From: a virus | Reading direction: 5' to 3' (one strand) | Virus record (IMG/VR): IMGVR_UViG_3300030118_004979 | Location: 2,180-66,179 of that record | DNA length: 64,000 bases | Shown here: positions 7,787 to 34,354 of the stretch, in pieces | Layout of the letters: each line of letters starts with the position of its first letter | Numbering within the stretch: the stretch's first letter is position 1 | The notes under the pieces: model-generated | The model's input: only the letters and a program-made list of their open reading frames with translations | What the model was told of the DNA's origin: nothing | Databases searched by the model: none | Translations under genes and position numbers: made by a program

Positions 7787-8212
7787 TTAGTCATCAGAAC
7801 TAATTCCTGTATCAGGTCCATCACATAACAAGTACTGTGCTTTTTGTGCAGCAGTTGTTGCTTGTAAATCTAGATTAGTTGAACCGTCTCCAGCACCATC
7901 TACATGCACTGGTGAAAACATACATTCACCTGGCTTAAGATCTGCTATAACATCACCATCTGGTTTTACTGCAATAGGATAATCTGTATCTACATTTTTT
8001 ACAAATGTAAAAATCATATCTTTATTATTACTGGCACTTGATATAGTAGTAGCTCCTGTGCCTACAAGAATTTCTCCTGTATGTAAAATATTAGAATCTA
8101 CTGTTGTGCTTGATGTAGTAAAACTTGGTGAATAAGATAATACTGCATTTCCATCTGAATCTACTAAACTAAGTGATCCAGATACTTGTATTGATAATGA
8201 TTGTGTAGCCAT
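7787..8212 (-). CDS. Small beta-rich virion protein, decoration-like (paralogue A)
   Basis: 141 residues, Ser/Thr/Asp-rich. The pattern from DMIFTFVKNVDTDYPIAV through VIADLKPGECMF matches the adjacent 129-residue protein (IYVRNLDDTNFVKIY...LIGILEPGQFL), so the two look like diverged duplicates; a third relative is at 41262-41723. This motif recurs in small phage head or tail decoration proteins. No enzymatic motif. Ends acidic (GISSDD). Confidence 0.6.
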   Translation of the reverse strand: MATQSLSIQVSGSLSLVDSDGNAVLSYSPSFTTSSTTVDSNILHTGEILVGTGATTISSASNNKDMIFTFVKNVDTDYPIAVKPDGDVIADLKPGECMFSPVHVDGAGDGSTNLDLQATTAAQKAQYLLCDGPDTGISSDD

Positions 8213-8222
8213 ATTTTTTTAT

Positions 8223-8612
8223 TTATGCGTTTGAATCTATTTCTATTGCTGCGTACTCAATTGTAACAGTAGCTGTATCAGCTTTTGCTACAGTAGTACC
8301 TGTTCCTCTTATAATAGTCATTAAAAATTGACCTGGCTCAAGTATACCTATTAGATCATTTGCACTTGAAGCACCATCATAAATTTTTACAAAATTAGTA
8401 TCATCAAGATTTCTAACATATATCATTCTTCCATGACCTGGAGCTGCCATTACTGTTGTATCTCCATCATGCGCTACATCAAATCTACCTGTTGCTATTT
8501 GATCTACACCAGTAATATTAAGCGTATATGATCCAGTCTGTGATAATGAATATCCAGTGCCTGAAGTGGCCGTCATATTAATTGAACAATTTAAAGTATA
8601 ATTTTTTGCCAT
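8223..8612 (-). CDS. Small beta-rich virion protein, decoration-like (paralogue B)
   Basis: 129 residues: beta-rich with Thr/Ser/Gly repeats at the start, then MIYVRNLDDTNFVKIY and DLIGILEPGQFLM near the middle, the same plan as the next gene downstream. It has its own promoter-like element at 8627-8634 ending 14 bases before its ATG, suggesting strong separate expression, as expected of an abundant structural protein. Function as capsid decoration or tail adaptor is inferred. Confidence 0.6.
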   Translation of the reverse strand: MAKNYTLNCSINMTATSGTGYSLSQTGSYTLNITGVDQIATGRFDVAHDGDTTVMAAPGHGRMIYVRNLDDTNFVKIYDGASSANDLIGILEPGQFLMTIIRGTGTTVAKADTATVTIEYAAIEIDSNA

Positions 8613-8634: not shown

Positions 8635-8898
8635 ACAAATTTTTACCATTTTATCTTTTTCTTTATGTGATTTTATTCTAGCACATTTTTCGTATTCTTC
8701 GCTATCAATATAATAATTTATTAAATCATCATATATTTTATTTGGTATTCTTTTTTTTGGATTAAAAGGTAAACTACACCCATTGTATTCAAATAACTCT
8801 AAAAAAGTCATTTGTCTTGTTACAATTAAATATGCATTTCGCATTGATTCATGATATAATTGTTCTTCATCTGTGTACATCCTATTAAGGATTTTCAT
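8632..8898 (-). CDS. Small protein of unknown function
   Basis: 88 residues, mixed helical; the C-terminal half (YDDLINYYIDSEEYEKCARIKS) is a helical hairpin-like segment of the sort seen in short phage proteins. It overlaps the holin-like gene by 4 bases. No transmembrane segment. It could be a lysis or assembly accessory, but nothing proves this. Confidence 0.55.
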   Translation of the reverse strand: MKILNRMYTDEEQLYHESMRNAYLIVTRQMTFLELFEYNGCSLPFNPKKRIPNKIYDDLINYYIDSEEYEKCARIKSHKEKDKMVKIC

Positions 8899-9287
8899 TT
8901 TTTAACTTTTTCTAGAGATCTACCACCAAAATACGCACCTATTACTGTAATTAAAACTAATTGTAATAAATCCACATACGAATCTTTTACCTCAAAACTT
9001 ATAAAACCAGCATCAATAAATACAAGTAGCACTGTGCTAATTACTAAAAATACTAATACTAATGGTCTTATGTTTTTACTTAACCATGAGTCAGAGTTCA
9101 TATCAAGTTTCCATCTTTCAGTAACTTGTTTTTGCATTTCAGCTTCATAACCCATAATTAAATCTTTTATCTTTCTTTCTGCTTCTAGCTTTTCTTCTTT
9201 TGTAGTTGTAAGATTATCTAATACACCACCTACATTTTTAACTAATTCACCAGCTCCTGCTGAAAATATTTTACCTAATACACTCAT
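8895..9287 (-). CDS. Holin, 3TM-type family
   Basis: 130 residues: an amphipathic N-terminal region with a charged helix (TTKEEKLEAERKIKDLI), then two clear hydrophobic segments (RPLVLVFLVISTVLLVFIDAGFI and LLQLVLITVIGAYFGGR) and a basic C-terminus. The arrangement DSWLSKNIRPLVLV is characteristic of the holin family also found in gene-transfer agents. Holins form membrane lesions that time lysis. Overlaps the next membrane-protein gene by 4 bases, and lies near a DUF5675 enzyme. Confidence 0.75.
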   Translation of the reverse strand: MSVLGKIFSAGAGELVKNVGGVLDNLTTTKEEKLEAERKIKDLIMGYEAEMQKQVTERWKLDMNSDSWLSKNIRPLVLVFLVISTVLLVFIDAGFISFEVKDSYVDLLQLVLITVIGAYFGGRSLEKVKK

Positions 9288-9495: not shown

Positions 9496-9747
9496 TTAAT
9501 AACCTCCACCACCTCCACTTGTAGATCCACCAGATGTTATATTAGTTGTACCACCTAATGGACCAAATTGTATATTACTTTGTCTACTACCTGTAGCTGT
9601 ACTATGAGATGAACCACCCATATAACCAACTACTCCACGTACAACGTGTGTATGATATCCTGTTAATCCATTAGCTCTAGCGTAATTTAAAGCCTCTTGT
9701 ATTGTAGAATATACAGGCACACCTCCTATTGTTCCTAATACTGCCAT
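9496..9747 (-). CDS. Small Gly/Ser-rich protein, possible virion component
   Basis: 83 residues. The first half contains the phrase GYHTHVVRGVVGYMGGSSH, a motif seen in small marine phage proteins; the second half is Gly/Ser/Thr-rich and ends GGGGGY. The composition suggests a flexible or surface-attached structural protein. No enzyme motif. It abuts the basic-protein cluster. Confidence 0.5.
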   Translation of the reverse strand: MAVLGTIGGVPVYSTIQEALNYARANGLTGYHTHVVRGVVGYMGGSSHSTATGSRQSNIQFGPLGGTTNITSGGSTSGGGGGY

Positions 9748-10079
9748 TAATCTAATTGTCTAAATAATGTTTCTGGTAATCTACCACCACTAGCACATTT
9801 CCATCTTCTTCTAGCTTGTCTAATTCTAGAGTTTGGATTATTCCTAGTTTTAGCACTACTTCTTTTCAATTGACCTAAACTTCTAGCACAATATGACTTT
9901 CTACGTTTAGCAGCTTTGCTACCTGGTTTTACTTTACCAGTAACAGCTGTTTTAAGTTTACTTCCAGGATTAGCTTTTCTAAATAGAGCTACTCCCTTAC
10001 GAGTCATACCAGCGCCAGACTTTGTCTTACGATAGTTACCACCTTTGCCAATAGTACGTCTTATTTGCTTTTGAGGCAT
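9747..10079 (-). CDS. Very basic small protein (cluster member 1)
   Basis: 110 residues, rich in Lys and Arg with the phrases AGMTRKGVALFRKANPGSK, LKTAVTGKVKPGSKAAKRR and SYCARSLGQL, which recur in short proteins of marine phages (DUF6321-like). It ends LFRQLD, a tail shared with the two genes upstream in the operon. The high charge suggests binding to DNA or RNA, or an internal virion role. Start and end overlap neighbours. Confidence 0.6.
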   Translation of the reverse strand: MPQKQIRRTIGKGGNYRKTKSGAGMTRKGVALFRKANPGSKLKTAVTGKVKPGSKAAKRRKSYCARSLGQLKRSSAKTRNNPNSRIRQARRRWKCASGGRLPETLFRQLD

Positions 10080-10443: not shown

Positions 10444-10701
10444 TTAATCAAGTTGTCTTAAAAATTTTCCTCCACTCTTGTACCTACTCACTCTTCCTTT
10501 TTTCTTTTTTTCCCTTGCAGCTCTTCTTTTCTCTCCAGGTGTTAATTCACTCCATGTTTTAGGAGTATCCTTAGAAATACGCTTAGTAGGTCTAAATGTA
10601 TTTTCACCTTTACTATAATCTTTTTCACCAGAAGGCGTTCTCCAATCTTCTTTAAACCAACGTTTTAATCTTAATCCAGCTTTTGTTTTTCTAACAGCCA
10701 T
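10444..10701 (-). CDS. Basic small protein (cluster member 3)
   Basis: 85 residues from the ATG at 10701; a longer reading from 10761 would run into the preceding gene and add a poor N-terminus, while starting at MAVRKTKAGLRLKRW matches the usual form of this family. It contains GEKDYSKGENTFRPTK, TPKTWSELTPGEKRRAAREKK (given in two parts here because it is long) and ends KSGGKFLRQLD. Proteins with this pattern occur in marine phages and some large DNA viruses; function unknown. Confidence 0.6.
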   Translation of the reverse strand: MAVRKTKAGLRLKRWFKEDWRTPSGEKDYSKGENTFRPTKRISKDTPKTWSELTPGEKRRAAREKKKKGRVSRYKSGGKFLRQLD

Positions 10702-10702
10702 A

Positions 10703-10921
10703 TTAATCGTGTTGGAATATTCCTTTACCGCATTTATCAGATGATGATAAAAATCTACCACCTGATTTATACTTCATTCCTTTTGATCCTTTCTTTTTAC
10801 TTTTATTTCCCCAATTAGCAGCACCTACTTTTCTGCACTTAGCCATAGCACCACTTCTGTATGCTGATGTCTTAGGTCCATATCTAGCTACTACTTTATG
10901 ATAACAAGCGTCTTTAGGCAT
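10703..10921 (-). CDS. Basic small protein (cluster member 4)
   Basis: 72 residues from the ATG at 10921; a longer start at 10972 exists but the protein family normally begins MPKDACYHKVVARYG. It continues with SAYRSGAMAKCRKVGAANWG and ends GIFQHD. The gene starts 8 bases inside the end of its upstream neighbour. A widespread short family in marine phages and large viruses; function unknown, possibly nucleic-acid or virion associated because of its high pI. Confidence 0.6.
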   Translation of the reverse strand: MPKDACYHKVVARYGPKTSAYRSGAMAKCRKVGAANWGNKSKKKGSKGMKYKSGGRFLSSSDKCGKGIFQHD

Positions 10922-11228
10922 TTTTTCTAGTTTTTCTGATCGCTTCTTTACCTCTTCTAAATATAGAAGCAACCTGTGTTTTCTTCATTACTTTTGCCCT
11001 TTGTTCCCCAACAGTTAATATTTGTATTTTTCTAGCAAACGGTTTACTAATCTTTTTTACCTTTGCTACAGTAGCTCTAGCATCTGCAGGTGTAGCAAAT
11101 TTAATTCTAACAGTATCTTTTGGATTTTCATCTGTGTACAGTCTACGTCCAGTATTCTTAGGTTTTTTACCTGTTCCTTTTTTAGGATCTCTAACTTTTC
11201 TTGGCACTTCTATGAACTTTTTGTACAT
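10914..11228 (-). CDS. Basic small protein (cluster member 5)
   Basis: 104 residues starting at the ATG at 11228 (a TTG one codon upstream is less likely). It contains VPRKVRDPKKGTGKKPK, a DTVRIKFATPADARATVAK motif and ARKIQILTVGEQRAKVMKK, a pattern seen in short marine phage proteins. High Lys/Arg content. It overlaps the next upstream gene by 38 bases and downstream by 8, so the cluster is densely packed. Function unknown. Confidence 0.6.
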   Translation of the reverse strand: MYKKFIEVPRKVRDPKKGTGKKPKNTGRRLYTDENPKDTVRIKFATPADARATVAKVKKISKPFARKIQILTVGEQRAKVMKKTQVASIFRRGKEAIRKTRKNA

Positions 11229-11358
11229 CAAAACTAGCGCTTAAACTAGCTCCTCTATGTGCTTTAAACTTACCAGTATGTTTCATTAGCTTATAAGTAT
11301 TATTACCTTTTTTCATCCAATGAAAACCTGCTGGTGCTTTTACTGTTTTTCTAGCCAT
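11191..11358 (-). CDS. Basic small protein (cluster member 6)
   Basis: 55 residues, ATG at 11358 overlapping the stop of the secreted 780-residue protein. It reads MARKTVKAPAGFHWMKKG, then LMKHTGKFKAHRGAS and DVQKVHRSAKKS. Short proteins with the KAPxGFHWMK and FxxHKGAS motifs are common in marine phages, with no known function. It is the first of six consecutive small, very basic proteins. Its 3' end overlaps the next gene by 38 bases. Confidence 0.6.
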   Translation of the reverse strand: MARKTVKAPAGFHWMKKGNNTYKLMKHTGKFKAHRGASLSASFDVQKVHRSAKKS

Positions 11359-13693
11359 CGTTTTTAACTATCAATTTATTTATTACTTTATTGCCATATA
11401 AAATTATAATATTATACAACCCATTATCAAAACTTGATAAATCTAATTGTACAACATCTTCAGCTTCTAAAAGCATTTTACCTTCTATATTATACAATAT
11501 TATACTTACAAAGTTACTAAAATAAATTTTTTCACTTGTTGGATTAGGATATATATTAATTTCCATATCTCTTAAATTAAATTCTAAACCCTGTGGATAT
11601 CCTTCTTCACAATAATTATATGTAAGCTGACATATAGTATCCCATGCATTTTCACAACAATAATCATCTACATCTATAACCCAAGCATAACACGGATCAT
11701 TTAACCAATAAGGACTGCCCGCACCAGTGATACAACCAGCACTATAAAGGCAGTTAAGACTGTCATTAACATTAGCTTCACTGTTGTAGTTATGTGCTGA
11801 TTGGTCCATACATCCTTGTACAATAGCCTCACATGAACCATTGTCAGTATTAGCTGTTGAATCATAATTAAAGGCAGTACTATCAGTGCAACCATAGATG
11901 TAAGGTATACAACTGAAATCTTCTGTATTTGCTTGTGGGTTGAAGTTGAGCATGCTAGGATCAGTGCAACCAAAGATAAAAGGCACGCAAGTATTATTAT
12001 CTGCATTTGCTAAAGGATTATAGTTAAACATTGTGCTATCTGTACATCCATAGACATAAGGCTCACAAGAACCATTGTCTGTGTTTGCTAGTGGATTGTA
12101 ATTATACATGACAGGATCAGTACATCCATATATATAAGGTATACAAGTGTCTGGTGCAGTAGCAAGAGAATTATAATTATACATCAAAGGGTCCATACAA
12201 CCATATACATATGGTATACAACCTCCATTATCTACGTTAGCTAAAGAATTATAATTAGACATAGTGTCATCCATACACCCAAAAATAGCTAAAGTATTGC
12301 AACTGTCTTGTACATTAATATCTGTATAGTATCCATTTGAAGTATCTACATGATATTCTAAATATGCTGGTGATATACATCCTGGATTATAGTAACATGT
12401 TGTTGATATGTTTGCGCTATCTACATAATTATAAGCCAAACTATCTACACAACCATATACTTTTTCTATGCAATTATTACCACAATATGTTAAGCCTTCG
12501 TATAATTTAAATGGAACTACAAAAGGTGGTCTAACACTAATAGCGGTATCACCTTCAGGACCAATTAAAGTAAAGCCACATTCTAATGCTGTATTTTGTG
12601 CTTGTTGACTTACAAATAGTTTTGCACTAACCTCTTCTATAGCATATAAATCTATAGTAAAATATTGATTAAAACCACTATTCATATAAAAAACTGATGT
12701 ATCATCTTCTTGGTATATTTCTAAACGTGTACCAACCCAACCATTGCCCACTAAATCATGTAAAATTAAATCATACGTACATACATCTATATTCTCCATA
12801 GTATTAGCTAGACTATCATAATTAAACATAGTGCTATCAATACATCCATAAATTTTTAAAACAGAACAACTACTATCATCAATAGTAGCTAATGGATTAT
12901 ACTCTACATAATCATCATCCATACAACCTGGTACAGGCGGTGGCGGTAAACAAGTGTCAGATATAAAAATATGTGTGGTATCACTTCCAAAGTTTGGATC
13001 TGATCCATATATTATAGTGTCTCCACATTGCATTATATAATAAGAGCCGTCTTGACCACCCCAGTTGCTACCAGCTAAACCGTCTCCATAATCATCATAT
13101 ATAGTAAAACTAAATTCACCAACAGGTATACATACTGGTATAAATTGTGGTTGGTAATTAGGCGCATTTACATAAGGGCCATTTGCAAAAATTATATTTC
13201 CTAAACTATCCTTTATATCCCAACTGGTTTCATCACCAAACTGATCTAAATTTATATTAATTAATGTAGGCACACAATTAACATAAGATGGAGGAGGTGG
13301 TGGTTGAGGCAAACATTGTGGCACTGTTCTAGTAGAATACAAACCACTTTGAAATGTTACAGTAGGTTTATTTATTATTGTATCACCGCAAACAGATAAA
13401 AAATAACTACCATCCATACCATCACCAAAAGTATCTCTAATCAAAAAAACAACAGTATTAATAGGTCCGTTTATAAAAAGAGTGTCTACGTAATTATGAT
13501 AAGGTAATGTTAAATCACCTGGACTTATATAACCTATAGTATCACCATATAAACTATCTGCAAATAAACACCATGATGTTTCTGTAGGATATTGATCAGT
13601 TGTTAAACTTAACACTGCAGGTTTTTGTCCACAACATTTTTTTGTTGTAAAACAACTCTGTAAAATAAGTAGTATAAAAATAAATTTTTTCAT
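11351..13693 (-). CDS. Secreted Cys-rich repeat protein with T9SS C-terminal sorting domain
   Basis: 780 residues. A signal peptide covers about residues 1-22 (FIFILLILQS core). N-terminal Asp/Gly-rich modules contain DTFGDGMDG and YDDYGDG patterns. About ten 26-residue repeats follow, of the form (Y/F)GC-(T/M)-D...NYN...AN...C, with paired Cys; six are tandem near 11800-12290. The last about 75 residues begin INIYPNPTSEKIYFSN and end KVINKLIVKN, the layout of type A T9SS sorting domains that direct Bacteroidetes cargo through the outer membrane. So the product is probably displayed or secreted by the host's own T9SS. Similar repeats occur in flavobacterial surface proteins, hinting at gene capture. 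A lipoprotein reading (LQSC near residue 14) is possible but weaker. Confidence 0.8.
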   Translation of the reverse strand: MKKFIFILLILQSCFTTKKCCGQKPAVLSLTTDQYPTETSWCLFADSLYGDTIGYISPGDLTLPYHNYVDTLFINGPINTVVFLIRDTFGDGMDGSYFLSVCGDTIINKPTVTFQSGLYSTRTVPQCLPQPPPPPSYVNCVPTLININLDQFGDETSWDIKDSLGNIIFANGPYVNAPNYQPQFIPVCIPVGEFSFTIYDDYGDGLAGSNWGGQDGSYYIMQCGDTIIYGSDPNFGSDTTHIFISDTCLPPPPVPGCMDDDYVEYNPLATIDDSSCSVLKIYGCIDSTMFNYDSLANTMENIDVCTYDLILHDLVGNGWVGTRLEIYQEDDTSVFYMNSGFNQYFTIDLYAIEEVSAKLFVSQQAQNTALECGFTLIGPEGDTAISVRPPFVVPFKLYEGLTYCGNNCIEKVYGCVDSLAYNYVDSANISTTCYYNPGCISPAYLEYHVDTSNGYYTDINVQDSCNTLAIFGCMDDTMSNYNSLANVDNGGCIPYVYGCMDPLMYNYNSLATAPDTCIPYIYGCTDPVMYNYNPLANTDNGSCEPYVYGCTDSTMFNYNPLANADNNTCVPFIFGCTDPSMLNFNPQANTEDFSCIPYIYGCTDSTAFNYDSTANTDNGSCEAIVQGCMDQSAHNYNSEANVNDSLNCLYSAGCITGAGSPYWLNDPCYAWVIDVDDYCCENAWDTICQLTYNYCEEGYPQGLEFNLRDMEINIYPNPTSEKIYFSNFVSIILYNIEGKMLLEAEDVVQLDLSSFDNGLYNIIILYGNKVINKLIVKNDG
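11800..12290 (-). repeat. Tandem ~78-bp coding repeats (GC-x-D...NYN...C units)
   Basis: Within the T9SS cargo gene, six consecutive units of about 78 bases each encode roughly 26 residues with two conserved Cys and a conserved NYN or NFN motif. Further diverged copies lie upstream in the gene. Units differ at the third codon base and in several residues, indicating older duplication rather than a recent expansion. Boundaries are approximate. Confidence 0.7.
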
Positions 13694-14031
13694 TAAAAAT
13701 CTTCCATTAATAGTTCATCAATTATATTTTGTATTTCTTTTTTTGTTGCCATTAATTTAAAACTTAAATCAGCCTGAAAACGTTTTACCTCTTCACCATC
13801 TTTAATTAATAAAATTGTTGGCACTACTGCTATTTTATATTTCTTTTGACAATCACCCTTACTAATATCCATGACTTCATGTTTAACATCATTAAGTTTA
13901 TCAAACCATTTTACTTCATTAGCAGAGTTCCATGTGGCATTAAAATAAATCGCTGTGATCTGAGAAAAACAACATTCTGTATATACCGTACAAAAAAATA
14001 ACGCTAATAATAATTTCAAACATTTTTTCAT
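13693..14031 (-). CDS. Secreted thioredoxin-fold protein lacking the CxxC
   Basis: 112 residues. A signal peptide is visible (KLLLALFFCTVYTECCFSQ), with the usual Bacteroidetes end SQ. The mature part follows the thioredoxin plan: ITAIYFNATWNSANEVKWF near 25-43 takes the place of the WCxxC region, and VVPTILLIKDGEEVKRF near 70-86 gives the cis-Pro and last strands. The usual active cysteines are replaced by N-S-A-N, so redox activity is doubtful; a binding or scaffold role is more likely. Periplasmic in the host. It abuts the T9SS cargo gene by one shared base. Confidence 0.7.
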   Translation of the reverse strand: MKKCLKLLLALFFCTVYTECCFSQITAIYFNATWNSANEVKWFDKLNDVKHEVMDISKGDCQKKYKIAVVPTILLIKDGEEVKRFQADLSFKLMATKKEIQNIIDELLMEDF

Positions 14032-14309
14032 CTTAGTTTATCTATTTTATCTTCCATTCTAATCATTCTTTCTTCAAGTTTTTTTACATTAGCTTCTGTA
14101 TTTATTATTGACTGTCTTATCATTTGATCTTTCATGTCAAACTCCATACGAGTTACCTCTGGTTCTGCCACAGGTAGTTCTTTAGCTTCAGCAATATCTG
14201 CTTGTAAAGTAAACCACATTCCTATTAAGGCTGATAAACCTGCACCTATTGCTATTAAAGTTTTTACACTAACTTTAAAACTTGTATCTTCATTTAATTC
14301 TTTAGCCAT
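14028..14309 (-). CDS. Membrane-anchored coiled-coil protein
   Basis: 93 residues: one transmembrane segment (LIAIGAGLSALIGMWFTLQA), an acidic Pro-containing linker, then a long coiled coil (NVKKLEERMIRMEDKIDKLR). The topology is that of a spanin-like, lysis-timing or superinfection-related protein, and many marine phages carry relatives of unknown role. Overlaps both neighbours, so it is expressed with the secreted cassette. Confidence 0.65.
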   Translation of the reverse strand: MAKELNEDTSFKVSVKTLIAIGAGLSALIGMWFTLQADIAEAKELPVAEPEVTRMEFDMKDQMIRQSIINTEANVKKLEERMIRMEDKIDKLR

Positions 14310-14479
14310 TATATTTCTATTCCAAAGTTAAACAACATTAATCTAAATCTTGAACATGTACCTCCAACACATGCACAATAGTGAATGTAGAATAAAGTCA
14401 TTGTTCCTAACCTAAGTTCTATTCTATATACTTCTTTTTTATTATTAGCTTTATAGCCATTTATCCAATTTACTTTCAT
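14309..14479 (-). CDS. Small Cys-containing protein of unknown function
   Basis: 56 residues starting at 14479; start and stop share bases with both neighbours (TAATG junctions), which supports it being real. It contains YIHYCACVGGTCSRF, a tight cluster of three cysteines, perhaps metal-binding or disulfide-forming. No signal peptide. No family recognised. Confidence 0.55.
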   Translation of the reverse strand: MKVNWINGYKANNKKEVYRIELRLGTMTLFYIHYCACVGGTCSRFRLMLFNFGIEI

Positions 14480-15507
14480 TATAATAATATATAATTTATA
14501 CCAACTTTAAAATCATACCACTCTCTATTCCAATACTTATTGTATTTACCCTCTGCAAACAAACCTAAATTTTTATTGTACTTATAACCAAATATCATAC
14601 CGCCTGAATAATCTGTCCATTGCCCATCTATATATTCATGATAGCTATATTCATTATTCATATTATAATGATATGGTAAAATATTTGCCCATGCATGCAA
14701 CCAATACATTTTCGTGTAATAGTAATAATCAAAACCTAATACCAATGAGTGATTCCATTTAGCAGATAATTCATTTCTCTTTTTCTCTACATAATCTCTT
14801 AATACAGTAGGTATAATTACTTCTTTCCAAACATCAGAGGATGTTGCTACTATATTACCATCAGGATCTTTATATTCATTATTAAATACATCTATATTAT
14901 AACCCTCTTGTATAGCTAAATATGTATAATGAATATCTCCATTATCCAAAACCCATTCTTCTAAAGGATCATAACCATAAGGCTCTGCTATACGCTGTAC
15001 AGCACCTATGTTGAAAGATAAATTATTATTATATTTATGTCTATATCTTTGAGATGCTTCGTAGTATTTTATGTCTGCAAAACCATCTTGTAAATATTCT
15101 ATTTTAGTTAACCAGCTATTATCAACATATCTAATAAAATAATGCTGATCTAAATAGTCATCTCCTTCTTGTCTTTTTTTATTAAACTCAAATAAAAATT
15201 CTAGCCCGCTAACTTTACCTAAAGTAGCAGCGTCTGACCATGATGTCTCAGTTCCATCGTAAAATGTTTGTGCTTTATTTTCATATCCAAACCTAGCTAT
15301 TTTTCTAATACCTAAGCTTAAATTGTAATCAAAAGGAGTTTTTACAGTATTTGTTTGTAATCCATTCTGAATAGAATAAACATCTACATCTGATATAGAA
15401 GTTCCACCGTTAGCGGCAACATAAAATGTAGAAAATTTTAAATATTTATTTATTTGGGCATTAGTGCTAAGACTAAATAATAGTAATATGTATATAAACT
15501 TATTCAT
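14479..15507 (-). CDS. Outer-membrane beta-barrel-like protein with signal peptide
   Basis: 342 residues. Signal peptide at the start (FIYILLLFSLSTNAQ), then a long series of alternating aromatic and polar strands (for example SLVLGFDYYYYTKMYWLHAW, NLGLFAEGKYNKYWNREW) ending in a strand-like YDFKVGINYILL, as expected for an outer-membrane barrel inserted by BAM. Phage-encoded porin-like proteins can alter receptors or block superinfection; this is inference. Co-transcribed with other secreted proteins of the cassette. Confidence 0.7.
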   Translation of the reverse strand: MNKFIYILLLFSLSTNAQINKYLKFSTFYVAANGGTSISDVDVYSIQNGLQTNTVKTPFDYNLSLGIRKIARFGYENKAQTFYDGTETSWSDAATLGKVSGLEFLFEFNKKRQEGDDYLDQHYFIRYVDNSWLTKIEYLQDGFADIKYYEASQRYRHKYNNNLSFNIGAVQRIAEPYGYDPLEEWVLDNGDIHYTYLAIQEGYNIDVFNNEYKDPDGNIVATSSDVWKEVIIPTVLRDYVEKKRNELSAKWNHSLVLGFDYYYYTKMYWLHAWANILPYHYNMNNEYSYHEYIDGQWTDYSGGMIFGYKYNKNLGLFAEGKYNKYWNREWYDFKVGINYILL

Positions 15508-15784
15508 CCATTTGTAACCATTCAGAACTTCTTAATACATTAAGTATTTCTTCATGATTGTATTTTGTTTTTCCACTAAAAAAATCTACATCATTTTCAT
15601 TTTCATCTTTCCATATAGGATCATTACCCTGATATTTAACAATTGCTTTATTTTTAGATACATTATATCTTAAAAAATCTTTACTTAAATTTAATAAATA
15701 TCTGTTTCCATTTTCATCAACTCCAAAATTCAAACTATCAATGTCTGATGACTCTACTATTACATATGTATAATTATTATACAT
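15500..15784 (-). CDS. Small protein of unknown function
   Basis: 94 residues, acidic (KDENENDVDFF, LRSSEWLQMDE), with an N-terminal strand-rich stretch (MYNNYTYVIVESSDIDSLNFG) resembling the cap or shaft proteins of small fibres. Overlaps the barrel gene by 8 bases and abuts the LamG gene. No family recognised. Confidence 0.55.
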   Translation of the reverse strand: MYNNYTYVIVESSDIDSLNFGVDENGNRYLLNLSKDFLRYNVSKNKAIVKYQGNDPIWKDENENDVDFFSGKTKYNHEEILNVLRSSEWLQMDE

Positions 15785-17076
15785 TATCTTAAACTTGTTG
15801 AAACTAAACTAGCATCAGCAACTGCAAACGCTGCACCACCAGTATATTTTTTTAAACTTGCAGAATGAACTTCATAAAATCCACCTACGCTTAATGTAGT
15901 TAAAGGAAATATATGTATTCTTTGATCTGTGTTGTCTATACATTTAAATACATTTTCAACTATTGTAGGCACATTAGCTACTGTACTAGTAGTAGCTCCA
16001 TGAGTTGTATTTGTAGTATCAACGGCAGAAGTTAATTTTTGCACAGCACATCTTACATTGCTACCATCTGATGTAAGTACAACAGCTCTAAATACATAAA
16101 AATCACCAATAGTTAAGTCACTACTTACAGTATGATATATTCTTTGATGAAAACTTGATGTGCATTGTGTGTTGATAGTACACCTTACACCACCCCCATC
16201 TAAAGCTGTAAATGTTCTAACACCAGAATCTCCACTATTTTTTTCTATTGTCCAATCATTAATACTAAAATTAGATCCTAATCTTGCACTATCTGAAGAA
16301 GTTCCGTGTGAACTTAAATCAGAGTTTTCTACTAGCTCTGATCCCAAGGCTGTATTTTTTAAATTAAAAATAACAGATGTTGAATCTTGTATACCATCTA
16401 CTATACCTGTTCCAAATTTATACCATGCTAATAAATTACCACTTGCAGATCCGTCATTATGATTAAAAGTTTTTCCACCATTATATATTTCTGTCATTTG
16501 ATCATCTGTAAGAGCTGTATTATAAATAGCCATATCACCAAGCTTTCCATGATGAGATGAAGCACCTGTTCCATTAGCTGCTCTTCCAAATTGAAGCCTA
16601 TTAAATGTGCCTACTACCTCTTCATCTATTATTGTTATGGCACTTAGTGTAGCTGGATCAATTCTAGTTCCATTAAAAAATAAAGATAATTGAGGTGTTG
16701 CAGTATTGTATACCATGGCTAAATGATTAAAATCATCAGATTCTACTGCGTCTTTTGGTCTATCTAAAACAGTACTGACTGTTGTTCCTTCCGATTTGTA
16801 TATAGCTCTAAAACGTTCATCAGCTGTTATATATTGTAATTCTATTTTATTATTTCCATCAGTATCTTTACATGCGCTAAAAAATGCTTCATTACCATTA
16901 CTTGTGTTTATCTTTACCCAAACACTAACAGAGCCTTGTTGAAATCCTATTAAAGATGCTAATGTAGAAGCGTCCACATAATCACCAGTTCCATCAAGTT
17001 CTAAAACTCTTTTTGTAGTGGTTGCAAATCTTTTTTTACTATTTGCTAAACTTAATGAACTAGCTACACCTAACAT
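15784..17076 (-). CDS. LamG/jelly-roll lectin domain virion adhesin
   Basis: 430 residues. Residues 25-210 show the concanavalin-like LamG pattern: LELDGTGDYVDAS at the first strand, GSVSVWVKINTSNGN, FNHLAMVYNTATPQLSLFFNG and the end motif HHGKLGDMAIYNTALTDDQMTEIYNGG. These domains bind glycans or proteins and are common in phage receptor-binding proteins. The C-terminal 200 residues are beta-rich. It lies just downstream of the giant cargo and tail genes, fitting a tail-associated adhesin that contacts the host surface. Confidence 0.75.
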   Translation of the reverse strand: MLGVASSLSLANSKKRFATTTKRVLELDGTGDYVDASTLASLIGFQQGSVSVWVKINTSNGNEAFFSACKDTDGNNKIELQYITADERFRAIYKSEGTTVSTVLDRPKDAVESDDFNHLAMVYNTATPQLSLFFNGTRIDPATLSAITIIDEEVVGTFNRLQFGRAANGTGASSHHGKLGDMAIYNTALTDDQMTEIYNGGKTFNHNDGSASGNLLAWYKFGTGIVDGIQDSTSVIFNLKNTALGSELVENSDLSSHGTSSDSARLGSNFSINDWTIEKNSGDSGVRTFTALDGGGVRCTINTQCTSSFHQRIYHTVSSDLTIGDFYVFRAVVLTSDGSNVRCAVQKLTSAVDTTNTTHGATTSTVANVPTIVENVFKCIDNTDQRIHIFPLTTLSVGGFYEVHSASLKKYTGGAAFAVADASLVSTSLR

Positions 17077-17509: not shown

Positions 17510-20500
17510 TTATTCTTTTTCTAGAGACGTCACCTCACCAACATACTTAACTGCTTTTTTAGCAGTGCCTATACTAGAAGGTATAATAGTATAATTAACA
17601 AAACGTCCACTATCTGTTGTAACAAATATATCTTTTTCAAGTTTTTTAAGATACTTTAATGTTACTGTATCTGGCTCATCCTCATCATCTAGCATTGATA
17701 TTAAAGCTATAATAACTGTTGCTATACCCAAGCCTCTTAAATGTGCTTTTATTTCTTCTTGTTTAGCAGGAGATAAAGATTTAAACTCATCATAAAATTG
17801 ATTCATAGAAATTTCCCCTCTAAAGTATCTTCTAACAAACTGAGCTGCAAATCTAGTTGAAGCTTGATAGCTACCTATGTTTACTTCACCAAATCTATTT
17901 ATTTCTTCACCACCAAATCTGTCATTAATTAATGTAATAAACCATTTTTTAAATTGTAAAATAGCTCTACCAAAAGAATACATAGATAATAAACTTGCAT
18001 CTAAAGCTGTATATCCTTCACCATGTAATGTAGCTATTTTATTATTAATATATCTAACCCTTTGTTCATCTATAATACCAGTGTTATATTCAGCATCTGT
18101 TAAAAAACCCAAGAAACTAGCCCCTTGTATATAGTGTTCTGTTTTATCCATAAAAATAAATGAAGCCTTTTCTATTTTACCCCATAAACCTTTTCTTTCA
18201 GATAAATGAACAAAATCATCAAAACTATGCTGAACTACTCTATATCTTTTTAATATATCTAACGCCTTGCCACGATCTTTAAAATATCTAATTTCACCTT
18301 TTACAAACTGACTTCCACCTCTTTTTCTTAACTCTTGATATTTACCTGCTAATAAATTACCAGCACCAATAGAAATATCAAAGCCTAATAATCTAAGAGA
18401 AGTAAGTTTGACAAAACCATCTATTACTTTATCTCCTGTCTTACCTACAAAACTTTGTTGTTTACCTCTTCCTAAAAATCCTTCTTTCCACCAACCTGTT
18501 AAATATTTTACTGCATTAACATTATCTAAATTTTTATTGAATGCTATTGCCGCATCTGTTAGTATAGATAAATTATTCATACCACCAAATCTTTGTAAAT
18601 CAGCTTCAGTGCCATCATACTTTTTATCACCATTACTAAATAAAGATCCACGAACAAATTCTAATAAAGCTGTATTAATATCTAAAGTAGTTAGTTCAGA
18701 CTTTATGCCTTTTCTTCTTTCATACTCCTGTATAATTTCTAAATCTAAATCTGTAGTGCCTTCTGGTTTTTCATCCATAAATCTTTTTAAAATAGCACCA
18801 TGATTTATCAAAGTATCATATTCTACATCTGATAATTGTATTAAACTACCATCTTCGTTTCTTCCTATTTTTTTAAACTTCTTAGCTTTTCTTCTTAGTT
18901 TTTCTAACTCATTTATTTTTCTACCAGTAGTTAAACTAATAGCTACTGTCCTGCCTTTATAAACTTCATTTTTCCACTCATAAAAAGTTTTTAATTTTTC
19001 TTTACCATCTAAATCTATACCCTTTACTTTTACTCTATCATAATCAGAAGAATTAATAATCATATTATATAATCCAAACAAACCACTTTTATCATATGAT
19101 TCTAATACACCCATTTGCATACCAGGCACATATGTTTCTAAAGACTTCATACCACTATCTCTTTGAGCGTCAAACATAATTTTAGTAATTGCTCTATATT
19201 CTAAATAATAATCTCTTTCTTCTTTTGTTAAATTATTTCTTTTTGTAGCATATTCTTGTTTAGATAATAATCTTATTTTACCATCTTCTTCTACTATAAT
19301 ATTTCCATATATCATTCTATATTTTTCGGATGGTCGTAGTGATGCTGACAGCCTTTCTAACACTGTTAGTCCCTTATTTTTAGATTTAACTAATGCATCA
19401 TTTTTTTCTTTTATTCTTTTTCTATAAACATTAAAACGATTTATATAGTTTGTATATTCTATTTCTGCTTGATTAATTAATTCTTGTAGCTCTGGTCTAT
19501 CACTAGTCATATTATTTGCACCTAACCAAGTTCTAAAATTAGATATATCTTTTTGTTGCGCACCATCTTCTCCTGGTATTACATATTTAAAGTTTTGTTT
19601 TTTTGCAGACTCTTGTAAAAACTTACTTTGTTTTTCAAACATTTTTTGTCCTATAGATTTTTCTATTAAATATGACATACCTTTTGTAGCTGTATTATCC
19701 ATTTTTCTAAACTGATTAGCTAGATCTACTAAGTCTTTAATAGTATACGAACTTAAAGGTTTTCTTGATAAAGTGTTTTCAAACTTTTTTACTATATTAA
19801 AATCATTAAGATATGTAGAATATCTAGTTTTAAGTATTTGATACGTTCTTGATTTTTTATCAATTACTTCACTTCTTATACCTTTATCAGCTAGCCACTG
19901 ATTAAAAGTAAACTCTTTGTCCATATCGCCTAAATAATCTTTATTGAATGATGTGTTAGGGCCTACATATTTTTTTGCCTTTCTTTTTGGTCCTTTAAAA
20001 GCATCTTCTTCTATAACTATAAATCTATCGTTTTCTGAACTCTTTTGTATTTCTTCTAATACTGAATATTTATCTTTTGGATTAACCACCATTTGTTCAG
20101 CCAACTCTAACTCTACTGTGCTACCTTCATCATACTCTCTATTTTGATCTTCTTGAATAATTCTTTCTATTTCGTTATTAATACTTTCCATATATTTTTG
20201 ATCAAAGAAAGGTGTAAATGATATAGCTTTCGGATAACCTGTAAATCCAAATTCATTAAACTCTGCTTCTAATTCAAAAATTAAATTCTTTTCTTGATCA
20301 CTAAGTTTAGCAAAACTTTTTCTTATATCGTTAATAGTTTTATATGATGTAAGTTCATTAATCTCTACTGTATTGTATGTTAATGTTTTAGTGCCATCTT
20401 TCTTTTCTACAATTTCTAATATTCTATTTAAGAATAAATTATCAGGTTTTAATTGTTGTAAATCTTCTAGCTCTTGAATTAATGTTTTAGGATCTCTAGC

Positions 20501-23500
20501 GCCATATAATAATGTCATACGTTTTTTTAAATTATTAACGATGACTTGATTTATTATTCTTGATTTTAAATGCGCTCTTTTATTATCATTTAGAAACTGT
20601 ACTGCAGATTCAGTTGTTAATAAACTCTGCATATATGGAGTATATCTTATATCTGTTACGCTTGCTCTATTTAAAAAACTATCAAACAAATTCATAGCAT
20701 GACTTACTATAGGATTACTTTTACTATCTCCTAATGTATATGGTATATTTAATCCAACTTTTGTTTTTCTTGTTTTAATGTTTACAGTCTCTGGATTTAT
20801 TATAATTTCATTATTAATTATTTCTTCTATTTGATCTCTTATAATTTTTAACTCTAATGGATTTTTTTCTATACTTTGATGCACCGTAAATGCTTTACCA
20901 AAAGGTCTAACTACATCATTATTAAACTGCTGTAAACCATACAACATTAATACAACATCTATGTTAGCAGATCTATCATTATTTAATAAATCTTGTATAT
21001 TTATATTAACACCATCTTTTAGTCTATTAGATAGTTTTGTCCAGTTTGTTTTGCTAGATAAGTTTTTACCTAATTTTTCATTTTGCAAAAAAGTTATTAA
21101 AGAATTAAATGACATATCATATTCTTTACCAAACATTTTTTCTATATCACTGTTTCTTGAAACATAACTTTTGCTTTGACCTTTTTTAAAAGCCATGTAT
21201 TTTTTTACAATAGGGCTATTAAATATTAAAGATATATCTTCAAGACTATACCCTAATCTTCTAAGTGTTACATATGGAAATATACTTTGGTAGTTTAATC
21301 CAAGTTTTTCTGCATATTGATATTTAGCATTATCTAATACTATATTTAATAACTGTGCCACACCATACCAATTACCTGTATTGTTTTCTAATGTAGTATC
21401 ATCAAAAAATTGAGTAACTTCTCTAGTCTCTCCTTGTAAGTTTGTAAATGATATATTAAAAGGTAGTTGTTCATTGTTATTAGAAAATACATTATATACT
21501 CTTTGTAACGCCGCAACAATACCTACTAGACGTTTAGAAGGAACATTCTCTTCAAACATTTTAGCATCACCCTGTGGTAATAATTGTGTAGGTATATCAA
21601 TTTTTGATAGCTCTGTATTTTTTTCTACACTTTCAATAGATTTTTTAGACACTTCGTCAAAGTCTATATTAGATTGTAATTCATTTTTCTTTTCTGCTTT
21701 ACTTACTAGTTGTATATACTTATCAAAAAAATCATTAGTCTTTAATCTCCAGCTTTTATTTTTAACTTTAGTTTCAATATCTGTCCATTTAAAATTCATA
21801 TGCACAGAATCTCCATCTAAATCTGCACCCCAATATGAACTTACTTTTGCAGGTATAGATATATTAGAAGATGGAGTGTTAGCCAATCTATCGTGAAACT
21901 CTTTAACAATAAATACAGCGCTACTTACTTTACCATGTGCTGGTATTCTTGTGCCTATAAATATATCTCCTATATTTACTCCTTGAGCTTTAAGATATTC
22001 AGGAACCCATGCTTCTGATACAATTATATTTGGATTCTCTTCTCTTAAATCTAATATAGCAGATTCAAAATCACTTTTATTCTGTTCATTAGTAAACTTA
22101 TCTGCGATAAAATTACCATTATCATCAAAGTAATCATCAGGAGTTTTGTAAGATTGTAATCCTAAGCCTAAACTAGAACTTTGATATGCTATAGATCCTT
22201 TAGTATACATTTTAGTACCCTTGTGCGCTATACGCCCACCAGCTATAGAATTGTATATAGAATTTAAATATGGATATCTAGGATCAGTAAAACCAAACAT
22301 AGAGTCTACTAGTATACCAAAAACCTCTGGACTCATTGAAGTTTTGAATGAATCTCTTTCTTTTATCACATCATCTTGTGTTGCACCCTCATCTTTAATT
22401 AAAGCTTTATTTCTTTCTATATTATTAGCTTCCATTACTTCTTTTCTAAGCTGTAGCATTTCATTTACTAAGGCTTGTTCATCAACACCTATATTAGTAA
22501 CTAAATGATAGAATAACTGTGACGGAAAAAATCTTTCGTTAGATTGTTTATCTAATTCTAATTGTATACCTAATCCTTCACCTGATAATGGTGTATATCC
22601 ATCTTGCATATATAATTCATTCTGTAATCTATTTATTGTATCTATATCTTCATTTACATCATAAACATACTTAGATCCTTGTGGTCCAGAAACACCATCT
22701 TTAAATACTTTAGTAGAAGACTCTGAAACGGCCATAACTAAATTACCATGTTTAAATATATTATCTCCTTTAAAATCTTCTATGGTATTTTCAGATATCA
22801 TTCTATGTCTTTCTCTTAAAACATCTGCAATTTTTTTCAACTCAGGACTTGCTTGTTCCATTTTAGGTGTTAATGGATGCACAGCATATTTTAAATATAC
22901 TGTTTCTCCAGATTTTATATCTGTATGATAATATACAAATTTTAAAACACTACCTACTTTTTGTATATCTCCATACTTGGAGGCTACAGCCTCTATTTGT
23001 TCTGGCAACATATAACCCATAGCATCATTTTCTATATAGTTATTTTCTTCTTCAGTGGTTATATTTAAATTATCATCTACATATAAGTCTTTAAATATTA
23101 CAGGCTCTACTCCAACATTTTTATCAAACTCTGTATGACTTGCAATAGCACCCGCAGCTCTTTTTATATAATCTGTCTCGCTTTGTGATTGTCTATGATC
23201 ATGTATAAAAACTTGTTGAGCCATAAACTTATTAGCTAGATATGATGTTAAGAATGCATCATAGGCTTCTCTTTTATTTTTTATTGCATTGTATTGCGTG
23301 TTACCTTCATATAGTTCTAGATTATTTTTAATATAATCGCTAAATTGTTTTACTAATTCAGGCATTTCTTTAATAGATAAATTACCATCTTTTTCTACAA
23401 TTGTGTACGGAAATATATCTTGACCTTTTGTATATTTAGCATTTATAGCAGGATTATTTTTAAGTTTAGTTAATATAATATTTTTCATATTAGTATTATG

Positions 23501-26500
23501 AGCAGCAAAACTTTGTACATAATACCTTCTGCTTTTATCTGAAAATACAGCTATAGGCTGACTATATGTAAAACCTTCTGTGTTTTTCTTTTGATTATAT
23601 ATTCCTATAAAATTAAAAAAATCACTAGCAGTTAATTCTGTTGAAGTTAAAGCATTTAATGTTAATGACATATCTTCAAATTCTACACCTTCTTTGGATG
23701 ATATAAAATATCTCATTAATCCAGAGTTTATTTCTATACCAAATGGGTTTTGTAATATATTACCCTCTTCATTTAATAATAAACCTTTTTGTAATTTATT
23801 ACGTAATATTTCTGTATATATATTATTTTCTGGACTTAGTATATTAGATGAATCAAAATTATAGTCTTTACTAACTAACTCGGCTAATCTCATAGATTTA
23901 TTATGTAAGCTATTTTGTTTGTTAAATATACTTACGCCTTGTTTTTCTACATTATCAACAATTGATAAAAAGTTTTTTGATCTTGACAATACAAGCCCTT
24001 GTGTTAATATTTGTCTTATTTCTTTTTGCCCTTTAAGATCTTTACCAACTTGATATTTAAAAAATCCAGTAGGTTTAAATTTATCTGTAGTTGGTTCAAA
24101 TTCATTTTTACCTTTATATACAACCCATGTTTTATCATTATCAAGCTTTATAGTTTTTCTTCTTGAGCCAGACTTTGTTGTAAAACCTATTTCTTTAAAA
24201 TTAAAAAATATGTCTTCTAAATATTGTTGCTTATCATCAAATAGTATAGGGTTGTTAAGTAAGGCCTGTTTATCAATTAATAATCCTTTTGGGCTATCGT
24301 CTAATAAAACACCTAATATTTCTTCTGCCGCTTCTCTTCTTGCAACTTTATCCTTAGGATCTACTTTAAATAAATTTGTATATATCTTTGCAATCTTATC
24401 ATGCTTGCTTGTTCTGTCCTTTTGTAATATGTCTAATATAGATTTTAAAGCATTATCTTCTACAGAACTACTAGTAGCTGTATATTTTTTCCAAGTTCTT
24501 TTACCTTCTTTATCTATAATTAAAGTATTGTTCATTAAAGTTTCTATCTGTAACCCATCTAATGGTGATTTTAATTCAATAATTTTTGCATTAGTTACAT
24601 CAGAATTTTGATAAACACTATCTAAAACAGTTAACATAGATTTTATTTCATGATTAGTGCTTTTTCTTAATAGCATTACAAAATCAAAAGGTTCATTCTT
24701 AGTAGATTTAGAAATAGTTAAAAGCTCATGCAATAAATTTTTTCTATCCATTGGTATTGCAGGATTTTTATAGTTGAATAATGCTACTATTTTTCTAGTA
24801 AATGCAGATAGTGTAGTGGGTAAAGCAATATCTTTTTCTTCTCTAGCATTTAAATCATTTTGATTTTCTGAATCTTCTGAAACATCTTCTATAGTTTCTG
24901 TACTTAAACCTATTTGGTTAATAGCTTTATCTAATCTTTGATCTGCAATTTTAAGTTGATTTCTTTTTGTTGTTTGAATTACTATAGCCCTTACATAATC
25001 TCTAATTTTAAATAATTCATCATCAGACAATCTATGATCTTTTTTCAAATCATTCATTACATTTCTTACTATTTCATCTTCAGTTAAGTTTCTGCCTATA
25101 TAGTCACCTATTGATGCATGAACAACTGAATATCCAGAAACTTTTTTTAGTCTTGAATTAGAAGCTTTTTTCATAGACGCCCTAGCTGGATTGCTTACTG
25201 TAGGTATTGTATTTCTATCTGAACCAAAATCTAATAAAACATGTTTAATAGCAGCCTCTAAATCTAGATCTCCTATATTGTCAACAGAAAGATTTAATAG
25301 CTCTAGCGCTTCCTTTTCTGTTGTAAGATTTTTTATGTCTTTATAAAATTCAATTAAATCTTGTCTTAACTGTTCTTGTGCTTTTGTACCTTCTATCACT
25401 GTTTGTGATGTACCATAAGAATATGCTTCTAAAGCTCTAGTAAAGGATTCTTCTATTAAAGGTTCTTGTAAATCTATTCTAACTTCTTTATGACCTAATG
25501 ATTTAAGTTGTGTTCGTAGTTCTGTAAACAACTCATTCATTCTGTTATTATCATTTTTTCTTTCTGCTCTAGCTAAATTGTTTACAATATCTGTAAGTAC
25601 ATTACTATCCAAAACTTTATTGGAAGATTTTTCTTGACTATAAAATTCACCAACTGTAATTTTTTGCCCATTAATATTCATTAATGTAAGCTCAGGATAA
25701 AGTAATTTAGTTGTTTTGAATATACCTGACTTATATATAACTTTTCTAATACGCTTCATTAAAGGCGTATCTTTCATTAATCCATAATAAACATGACCAG
25801 CTTCGTGAATTATATCACTTTGTCTAGCGCCATCTATGTTTACAATTACACTACTTCCTAGAGCAAAAGCCACTGATCTTTGACCATACGAATCTATTAG
25901 TTGTTGTGATGTTAGATATCCTTTATATCCAGGAAACTTTTTATCAATAATACTTTTAACTAAATTGTATTCATATAAGTTAGTTCTATGAAAGTTTCTT
26001 GTAAAGTTTTCATCAATGTTAGGCTCTTCTGTAGGTAATGCTGTAGATGGTTTGAAAGAATCATATATTTTTTTTGTTCTTTCTTTTATTTCATCAATTA
26101 CTTTTTTAGTTATATTTTTTGGATCAGATTTTTTAGCTCTTTTTTTAAGAGTTTGTTTAAAATCCCTTTGAGCAACCTTACCTACTTGTTCACCATTTAT
26201 CTTTACAATTATTTCAGATTCGTATAATTGATCACCAAACTGATAAAACAAATCACCATCTATATCTACTACATTATCTTGTCCAACCTGTGGTTTACGA
26301 ACCTCTAGTTCTATATTGACATCTTCATCGCTTTGTACAAATTTATCTGATACACCTGCTTGATCTACATAAGATATGGTTTCATCATCTTTGACTATAG
26401 TATAATATACTAAACCTCTACCTTTTTCTATTTTAGCTTTTGGAATGGTTCTAGATCCTGCAGATTCTACCCTTTTATAGTCCTTAGTTTTAGGAACTAC

Positions 26501-32762: not shown

Positions 32763-34354
32763 TATGCCATATTATTTTTTTTCCACTTATTTATATTTTT
32801 CTTTGCAACCATAGCTATTTCTTTATCATCCATATTAGGTTTAAATTGATCTGTTGCATGATCATAAATACCTGCTCCTTTTTTTACTTTAAATGGTAAT
32901 ACTCCTTTTTTAGAATATATAGTTCCTGTATTGTCTACAGGCATCGGATTAGACTTATGCGTTTCTTTACCAGGTGTAATCATTTTACCACCCATAGCCT
33001 TTCTTATTGGTGCTGCAGCTCTTTTAAAATCACCTGAAGCTAAACCAGCTTCTACTTCATTTTGATCATTTACAACTAATTCATTACCTGTAAATTCTGC
33101 AACAATATTTTTAAGTTGTCCACCTTTTTGAAAAACTTCTACGTTTTCTCTAATTAATGGACTATCTAAATCCCATCTATAATCTTCTGTACCCACTGAA
33201 TCATAACCTTTACTTTGTTTGAAAAATGGATCTAATAATGGTCCAGTTTTTATTCTACCTGTTTCTTTAACTCTATTAGAAACGTCTTTTGAATTAAAAG
33301 TTGGTAAAACTGGTTGTATTGACTCTGCTTTTATACTTCCAGGTTTTGTTACTTGAATACCACTACCCTCTTCAGATACACTTCTGCCTAAAAGATCTAT
33401 TGTTCCTTTTTGACCTGTTTGAAGATTCAGTGAGCCGTCTGGATTTATTGTATATACTTTATTACCTTTCTCATCTACCACGCCTCTATCTTGGTAATAG
33501 TCATCATCATATTTTGTTACAAAAGAAGTAAATGTATCAAGAATGTTTCCAGCTTGTGAGGGTATTGATACAATAGCCCTGCCTAACCCTCTAAAGAATT
33601 CTAAAACTCCACCGTTACCATAACTTTTAGGATCATAAGGATTTTTCATTCTACCTCCATCTTTCATTATACCTATATTGCCACCATATTGATTTTGATA
33701 TTTAGAAGATTCTTCTGCCCAAGCATAAGCTTCTTTCATACTTTCATTCTTACTTCTTAAATCTAATATAGCTTCACTAATATTTTGTTGTCTTTCATCT
33801 AAAGCTTTTTCGTACTTTTTAATTTGTTTTTTTCTTTTTTTATCAGCTTTATCTTCTTCAAATAAACCCAAACCTAAACCCAATACAGCTCCAACTATCG
33901 CACCAGGTCCTCCTGCTACTTTTGCACCTAATGATGCTCCTGAAGCTATAGATCCAGCAAATTCTAAATCTGAATATTCATATGGATTTTGATCTCTTGT
34001 TCCAGAGTATAATGCTAATGGTAAAGCTAAATCAAAACCTTCAGTAGTGCCTTCTGTTCCTAAAAACTTACCTAACTTACTATGAGTTTCTTCACCAATT
34101 TTTAAACTTTTACCTATTGTTGATCCTACTTGTGCCTGACCAACACCTAATAAAAATTTATCTACATCACTTAAATTAGAGCCTAATCTTTCTGTTTCTT
34201 CAACAATATTTATAGGTTCTGGATTTTCAGATAAAATTCCGCTTATGTTAGTTCCATATGCTTCACTTGAATATGGATTTACAGACTCAAAGTTTCCGTA
34301 GTTATAAAAACTACCATATTGCTGCATTGCTCTTAAGACGTCTGAATATGCCAT
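32762..34354 (-). CDS. Internal virion protein with Gly-rich membrane segment
   Basis: 530 residues. Near residues 130-170 a run GASLGAKVAGGPGAIVGAVL followed by GLGLGLF forms a Gly-rich hydrophobic helix like those of ejected T7-type inner-core proteins. A charged coiled coil follows (KADKKRKKQIKKYEKALDER). The C-terminal part contains KNIVAEFTGNELVVNDQNEV, a motif recurring in Bacteroidetes phage internal proteins. Directly abuts the lysozyme protein, supporting a shared role in DNA ejection. Confidence 0.65.
   Translation of the reverse strand: MAYSDVLRAMQQYGSFYNYGNFESVNPYSSEAYGTNISGILSENPEPINIVEETERLGSNLSDVDKFLLGVGQAQVGSTIGKSLKIGEETHSKLGKFLGTEGTTEGFDLALPLALYSGTRDQNPYEYSDLEFAGSIASGASLGAKVAGGPGAIVGAVLGLGLGLFEEDKADKKRKKQIKKYEKALDERQQNISEAILDLRSKNESMKEAYAWAEESSKYQNQYGGNIGIMKDGGRMKNPYDPKSYGNGGVLEFFRGLGRAIVSIPSQAGNILDTFTSFVTKYDDDYYQDRGVVDEKGNKVYTINPDGSLNLQTGQKGTIDLLGRSVSEEGSGIQVTKPGSIKAESIQPVLPTFNSKDVSNRVKETGRIKTGPLLDPFFKQSKGYDSVGTEDYRWDLDSPLIRENVEVFQKGGQLKNIVAEFTGNELVVNDQNEVEAGLASGDFKRAAAPIRKAMGGKMITPGKETHKSNPMPVDNTGTIYSKKGVLPFKVKKGAGIYDHATDQFKPNMDDKEIAMVAKKNINKWKKNNMA

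Follow-up and report, generated by a model that had tools for sequence, protein, structure and literature searches.

Among the late genes of a crAss-like phage lies one for a 780-residue protein that seems to carry both ends of a type IX secretion system (T9SS) cargo, an N-terminal signal peptide and a C-terminal sorting domain. It raises the question whether the phage exports a protein of its own through the secretion system of its host. We examined the gene within a 64,000-nucleotide stretch of the IMG/VR virus record IMGVR_UViG_3300030118_004979 (positions 2,180 to 66,179; hereafter the window), to which all coordinates refer, (-) denoting the minus strand.

The phage and its cargo protein

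The window has a GC content of 31% and encodes a crAss-type portal protein (48942–51230 (-); phrog_6547, E 3.6e-118), a crAss-type terminase large subunit (TerL; 51233–53047 (-); phrog_6681, E 2e-90), a major head protein (MCP; 46243–47784 (-); phrog_11589) and a 1930-residue Crassvirus muzzle protein (34354–40146 (-); PF25731, E 5e-119), which together identify it as a member of the Crassvirales. Its tblastn relatives are crAss-like phages of Bacteroides, Flavobacterium and Cellulophaga at about 22–32% identity, so that the phage belongs to a crAss-like lineage without a cultured member. The likely hosts and the nature of the related records, rather than a stated source, suggest that it is marine.

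The cargo gene (11351–13693 (-)) starts with ATG and its open reading frame (ORF) boundaries are exact. The encoded protein begins with MKKFIFILLILQSCFTTKKCCG, followed directly by Gln, and this N-terminus has the form of a signal peptide (residues 1–22; 13628–13693 (-)) with cleavage expected before Gln23. The Gln is invariant in an alignment of 50 relatives, as expected from the Bacteroidetes Q-rule (PMC5837995). Form and invariance support a Sec signal peptide, in agreement with the signal peptide named in the initial annotation. A lipobox-like LQSC in the same region, with its Cys at residue 14, makes a lipoprotein reading of the cargo possible.

An AlphaFold2 (AF2) model computed from the 50-sequence alignment comprises three N-terminal β-sandwiches, the repeats, a small Cys domain of helical structure and, predicted with good confidence, a β domain at the C-terminus; the overall pTM is only 0.39, and the model therefore defines the domains and not their mutual arrangement. 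The sandwiches span residues 24–123 (13325–13624 (-)), 140–245 (12959–13276 (-)) and 304–401 (12491–12784 (-)). We counted by eye 11 GC...C units, which are recognizable in the sequence and as conserved alignment columns, two at residues 256–305 (12779–12928 (-)) and nine of about 26 residues each at residues 414–648 (11750–12454 (-)). Their spacing of 24–34, mostly 26 residues, fits the earlier description of about ten 26-residue Cys repeats. A Cys-rich helical domain (residues 653–697; 11603–11737 (-)), delineated by the alignment and the AF2 model, precedes the C-terminal sorting domain (CTD). Pfam and NCBIfam profile searches of the cargo found neither an enzyme nor a known binding domain.

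The CTD (residues 714–777; 11363–11554 (-)) scores above the curated cut-offs of the T9SS type A models, with 26.8 bits against TIGR04183 (cut-off 23; E 3.8e-6) and 29.6 bits against PF18962 (cut-off 27; E 8.6e-7). It is the sole match of the sorting-domain type in the whole 68.4-kb virus record (E 1.1e-8), which excludes chance as its explanation. A profile built from 35 phage CTDs retrieved the CTDs of solved T9SS cargo proteins (8glk_D, E 5e-12; 8glj_D, E 2.5e-9; gingipain R2, E 2e-4). With the full-length model as query, Foldseek aligned 75 columns with 8glk_D, a substrate CTD within a solved T9SS complex (probability 1.00, target TM 0.73, rmsd 2.4). The domain is predicted with an Ig-like fold and a pLDDT mostly of 84–90. 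Ferlin matches that ranked above 8glk_D are low-TM alignments of strings of β-sandwiches. The sorting domain proposed from the letters of the sequence thus passed the profile search that could have told against it, and its fold matches that of a known T9SS substrate.

Two exchangeable tails shared with likely hosts

Every complete cargo ORF ends in either a type A CTD or a tail of about 38 residues, which we refer to as class 2. In the 50-sequence alignment TIGR04183 matches all 20 class-1 relatives and none of the other 30, which bear the class-2 tail. This tail has the consensus LIxITDLLGRPxKxxKNxLLFFIYxDGTVEKKxIK, shares the linker of type A (W-S/T-GPLPxR) and has no Pfam or NCBIfam match.

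Our data indicate that the two tails have been exchanged repeatedly. A tree built from 109 cargo bodies, after removal of signal peptide and tail, requires at least 16 changes of tail class, with 14 of them forced by well-supported branches and about 33 expected for random placement; the count is open to the effect of recombination in the repeat body, but still means exchange. The cargo proteins of loci L023 and L153 have different tails despite 95.1% identity over 616 residues, the protein and DNA alignments both breaking at the linker. This swapping suggests that the class-2 tail is functionally equivalent to the type A CTD. Their homology is suggestive only, because the hhalign match, strong with the shared linker included (P 4.6e-5), is weak once it is removed (probability 6.6, with 2 of 200 column shuffles scoring at least as high). 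The class-2 tail retains both the G-R/K turn and the KKIIK terminus, in keeping with published work (PMC11285876).

The class-2 tail is also used by bacteria. Among 149 genomes related to one Flavobacteriales metagenome-assembled genome (MAG), most of them 1–2 Mb in size, 87 encode it, and the 30 small marine Flavobacteriales genomes that were examined for the T9SS hold 12–47 such tails each. In the loci inspected, the host tails lie at most 3 residues from the stop codon on varied proteins (PKD, LRR, TlpA-like, fn3), and many of the proteins with this tail have a signal peptide ending before Gln. In one host protein family, the members from six genomes end in the class-2 tail and those from two further genomes in a type A CTD. 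Host MAG loci with the class-2 tail are L176–L195 and L338–L343.

These bacteria also encode T9SS components. All 30 tested genomes encode TIGR04183 proteins (25–64 matches each), PorU scores above its cut-off in 29 of 30, and PorV and PorP were found in 17 of 17, counts that describe the likely hosts. The assignment of the phage to such hosts is indirect, the cassette turning up among assembled genomes in three MAG contigs that may be binning errors. Exported repeat proteins of the hosts use the same repeats and sandwich domains in 29 of 30 genomes, which implies that the cargo is probably built of host parts.

A conserved cassette of envelope proteins

The cargo gene is followed on its upstream side by three genes that form with it a conserved cassette. 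The nearest (13693–14031 (-)) encodes a secreted thioredoxin-fold protein of 112 residues, a conserved family in which FNAxWN replaces WCxxC in the aligned members (FNATWNSANEV in the window) and whose thioredoxin profile matches are weak and below cut-off. With the CxxC missing, a function as disulphide catalyst for the Cys repeats of the cargo was rejected. As in the cargo, the Gln after the signal peptide of this protein is invariant in the alignments. The next gene (14028–14309 (-)) encodes a 93-residue protein with one transmembrane (TM) segment and a coiled-coil C-terminus, and the third (14479–15507 (-)) a 342-residue outer-membrane β-barrel of about 12 strands. A 56-residue ORF (14309–14479 (-)), present in 18 compared loci, occupies the 170-bp stretch between the last two. 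Apart from this stretch, the cassette genes overlap or abut one another and the upstream tail-type genes, which makes co-transcription with the late genes likely.

Immediately upstream, a 94-residue ORF (15500–15784 (-)) overlaps the barrel gene and is preceded by a gene for a Laminin-G/ConA-like protein, probably a tail or receptor-binding gene (15784–17076 (-); PF13385, E 3.5e-18). A holin gene lies about 2 kb downstream of the cargo gene (8895–9287 (-); phrog_3427, E 3.7e-30; PF11351, weak). The location in the middle of a phage late operon, as first described, was therefore confirmed. The tail region also holds a 3817-residue ORF (17510–28963) that matches nothing in Pfam or PHROG; in other lineages, the protein encoded ahead of the cassette is a different one and reaches about 1780 residues. 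Just downstream of the cargo gene, small and very basic ORFs (10444–11231) share a repeated C-terminal RYKSGGKF or KYKSGGRF motif, near a DUF6321 protein (9747–10079). Further on lie two adjacent related ORFs of 141 (7787–8212) and 129 residues (8223–8612), whose family occurs in 56 compared loci, often as two or three tandem copies, and matches no known Pfam or PHROG family.

Cargo relatives are encoded in 105 matched viral stretches. Across 81 cargo loci (80 of these stretches and the window), the thioredoxin-fold gene is a neighbour in 72, the TM gene in 70 and the barrel gene in 67. Conversely, a search with the barrel alignment retrieved at least 591 viral contig stretches, and three MAG contigs among 84,980 genomes. 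The thioredoxin-fold gene accompanies the barrel in 68 of 83 loci taken from this search and the TM gene in 64 of 83; the 83 loci also include 54 recognized cargo ORFs with a classed tail, 23 of type A and 31 of class 2. The barrel gene lies on one or the other side of the remaining three genes, and the linkage thus survives rearrangement.

The cassette belongs to crAss-like phages, a crAss portal being encoded in 37 of 42 tested cassette records. Among 18 records with a close TerL, the barrel is present in 8, including all four longer than 60 kb, the others being shorter and possibly fragments. By tblastn the cassette has no match among 50,697 GenBank phages, and neither TIGR04183 nor the barrel was found in seven cultured relatives. 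The MAG contigs with cassette genes, L083, L084 and L085, are binned as Sphingobacteriales, Nitrosopelagicus and Flavobacteriales; they are probably phage contigs binned with hosts or bystanders and may be binning errors.

The barrel was also compared with the outer-membrane proteins of T9SSs. A relation to PorP/SprF was rejected since the hhalign match (probability 41) covers only 17 signal-peptide residues, as was a relation to PorV (probability 2.8). The barrel has no Pfam match to PorP/SprF or PorV and no sequence relation in the PDB, and Foldseek returned generic barrels only (NanC, EstA, FapF, autotransporters).

Export route, role and relation to known systems

We interpret the cargo as a surface or extracellular protein of a marine crAss-like phage, most likely made late in infection, and export by way of Sec followed by the host T9SS is its best and, in our judgement, highly probable reading. 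The reading is well supported by the match to curated models, the structural match, the exchange with a tail that hosts use and the presence of a T9SS in the likely hosts. As read from the sequence, the signal peptide would direct the protein to Sec and signal peptidase I. By analogy with its family, the type A CTD would then be recognized by the host T9SS (PorV/SprA/PorU) for passage across the outer membrane, after which the CTD would probably be cleaved and the remainder anchored or released. The cargo would act within the exported cassette, together with the outer-membrane barrel, the inner-membrane coiled-coil protein and the secreted thioredoxin fold, and the most likely outcome is that the host envelope is remodelled at a late stage of infection. 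What the phage gains may be that receptors are masked or blocked, so that additional or progeny virions do not adsorb, a guess that we regard as possible but rather less than probable.

Two other explanations concern this benefit and leave the export route as it is. The cassette may serve host lysis and egress, the TM protein acting as an inner-membrane spanin while the barrel and the cargo disturb the outer membrane, so that the envelope is opened after the holin fires. The order of genes, with the cassette following the tail genes and a holin downstream, suits this idea, as do the i-spanin-like topology that the sequence of the 93-residue protein suggests and the prospect that the products would cover inner membrane, periplasm, outer membrane and surface. 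However, profile searches matched the cassette to no known spanin or lysis family, the cargo and barrel are much larger than lysis requires, and the holin family (cluster c12) is found in only 23 compared loci; we consider lysis unlikely, if well short of negligible. To a similar degree we doubt that the cargo works as an adhesin or an extracellular factor, helping infected cells or released virions in the water to attach to particles or aggregate instead of protecting against superinfection. Its repeats and sandwich domains are indeed common in adhesin-type-looking surface proteins of the hosts, in the same 29 of 30 genomes, but the linkage to the barrel and two further envelope proteins suggests an envelope role, and the cargo contains none of the known binding domains or enzymes searched for.

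The T9SS reading itself faces two challenges. The gene sits in a structural operon, and its GC repeats have a match in a Synechococcus phage S-CAM3 protein whose annotation is virion structural, as might be expected of a virion component with an incidental T9SS-like tail. Virion proteins of tailed phages, however, are assembled in the cytoplasm and normally have no signal peptide, whereas the cargo has one with an invariant Gln and all complete relatives end in one of the two host-type tails, making a virion component very improbable. Finally, the domains shared with host proteins might betray a host fragment on a chimeric or contaminated contig, an explanation refuted by recurrence in the same phage context, that is by a near-identical gene (98–99%) in three other records, relatives in 105 viral stretches and the crAss portal in 37 of 42 cassette records.

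As predicted T9SS cargo, the protein resembles known type A substrates (TIGR04183/PF18962; gingipain RgpB and the F. johnsoniae substrate CTD in 8glk) in its signal peptide and in an Ig-like domain at the extreme C-terminus with YPNP, G, GxY and basic terminal motifs. It differs from them in being encoded in a phage late operon and in that most of its orthologues carry a short tail missed by the curated models. The clustering of a surface cargo gene with an outer-membrane barrel gene recalls type B cargo and its cognate PorP/SprF barrel (PMC10202324), but the present cargo has a type A CTD and its barrel no detectable relation to PorP/SprF or PorV.

The use of the host export route by a phage, initially put forward as novel, is not a new idea, since phage-borne T9SS cargo was reported in 2019 and 2020. 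T9SS type A domains on proteins of Cryophage led Bellas et al. (2020, PMC7468147) to propose use of the host system; those domains sit on three variable genes (endoglucanase, GH39, PA14) of a cryoconite phage, whereas the many marine crAss-like contigs considered here share one conserved repeat protein within a fixed cassette. For crAss-like phages with type IX secretion, the literature searched yielded only de Jonge et al. (2019, PMC6949934), who noted T9SS sorting domains near or in BACON-domain ORFs of predicted gut phage contigs, one of them fused to BACON repeats. These phages, in contrast, come from the gut and have different repeats, and the passages on them describe no cassette of barrel, thioredoxin-fold and TM proteins. 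The conserved cassette, the interchangeable tails and the short tail as a family were not found in that literature and appear to be new; their novelty is provisional because the search missed most subscription papers.

A bolder reading has two parts: that marine crAss-like phages carry an envelope-spanning display system, composed of an inner-membrane coil, a periplasmic thioredoxin fold, a barrel and a T9SS-exported protein, and that the tail of about 38 residues, common to these phages and marine Flavobacteriales, represents a hitherto unlisted kind of signal for T9SS sorting, derived by reduction of a type A CTD. We advance both together tentatively, as a conjunction somewhat less likely to hold than to fail. 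Earlier suggestions of T9SS use by phages concerned single, variable genes, whereas the trait described here is conserved and widespread in marine members of a major phage order and is linked to three further conserved envelope proteins. It offers a testable case of a virus displaying its own protein on a Bacteroidota cell through the export machine of the host, and the natural swaps between type A CTD and short tail, in phages and hosts alike, suggest a minimal sorting signal that escapes the current profile models.
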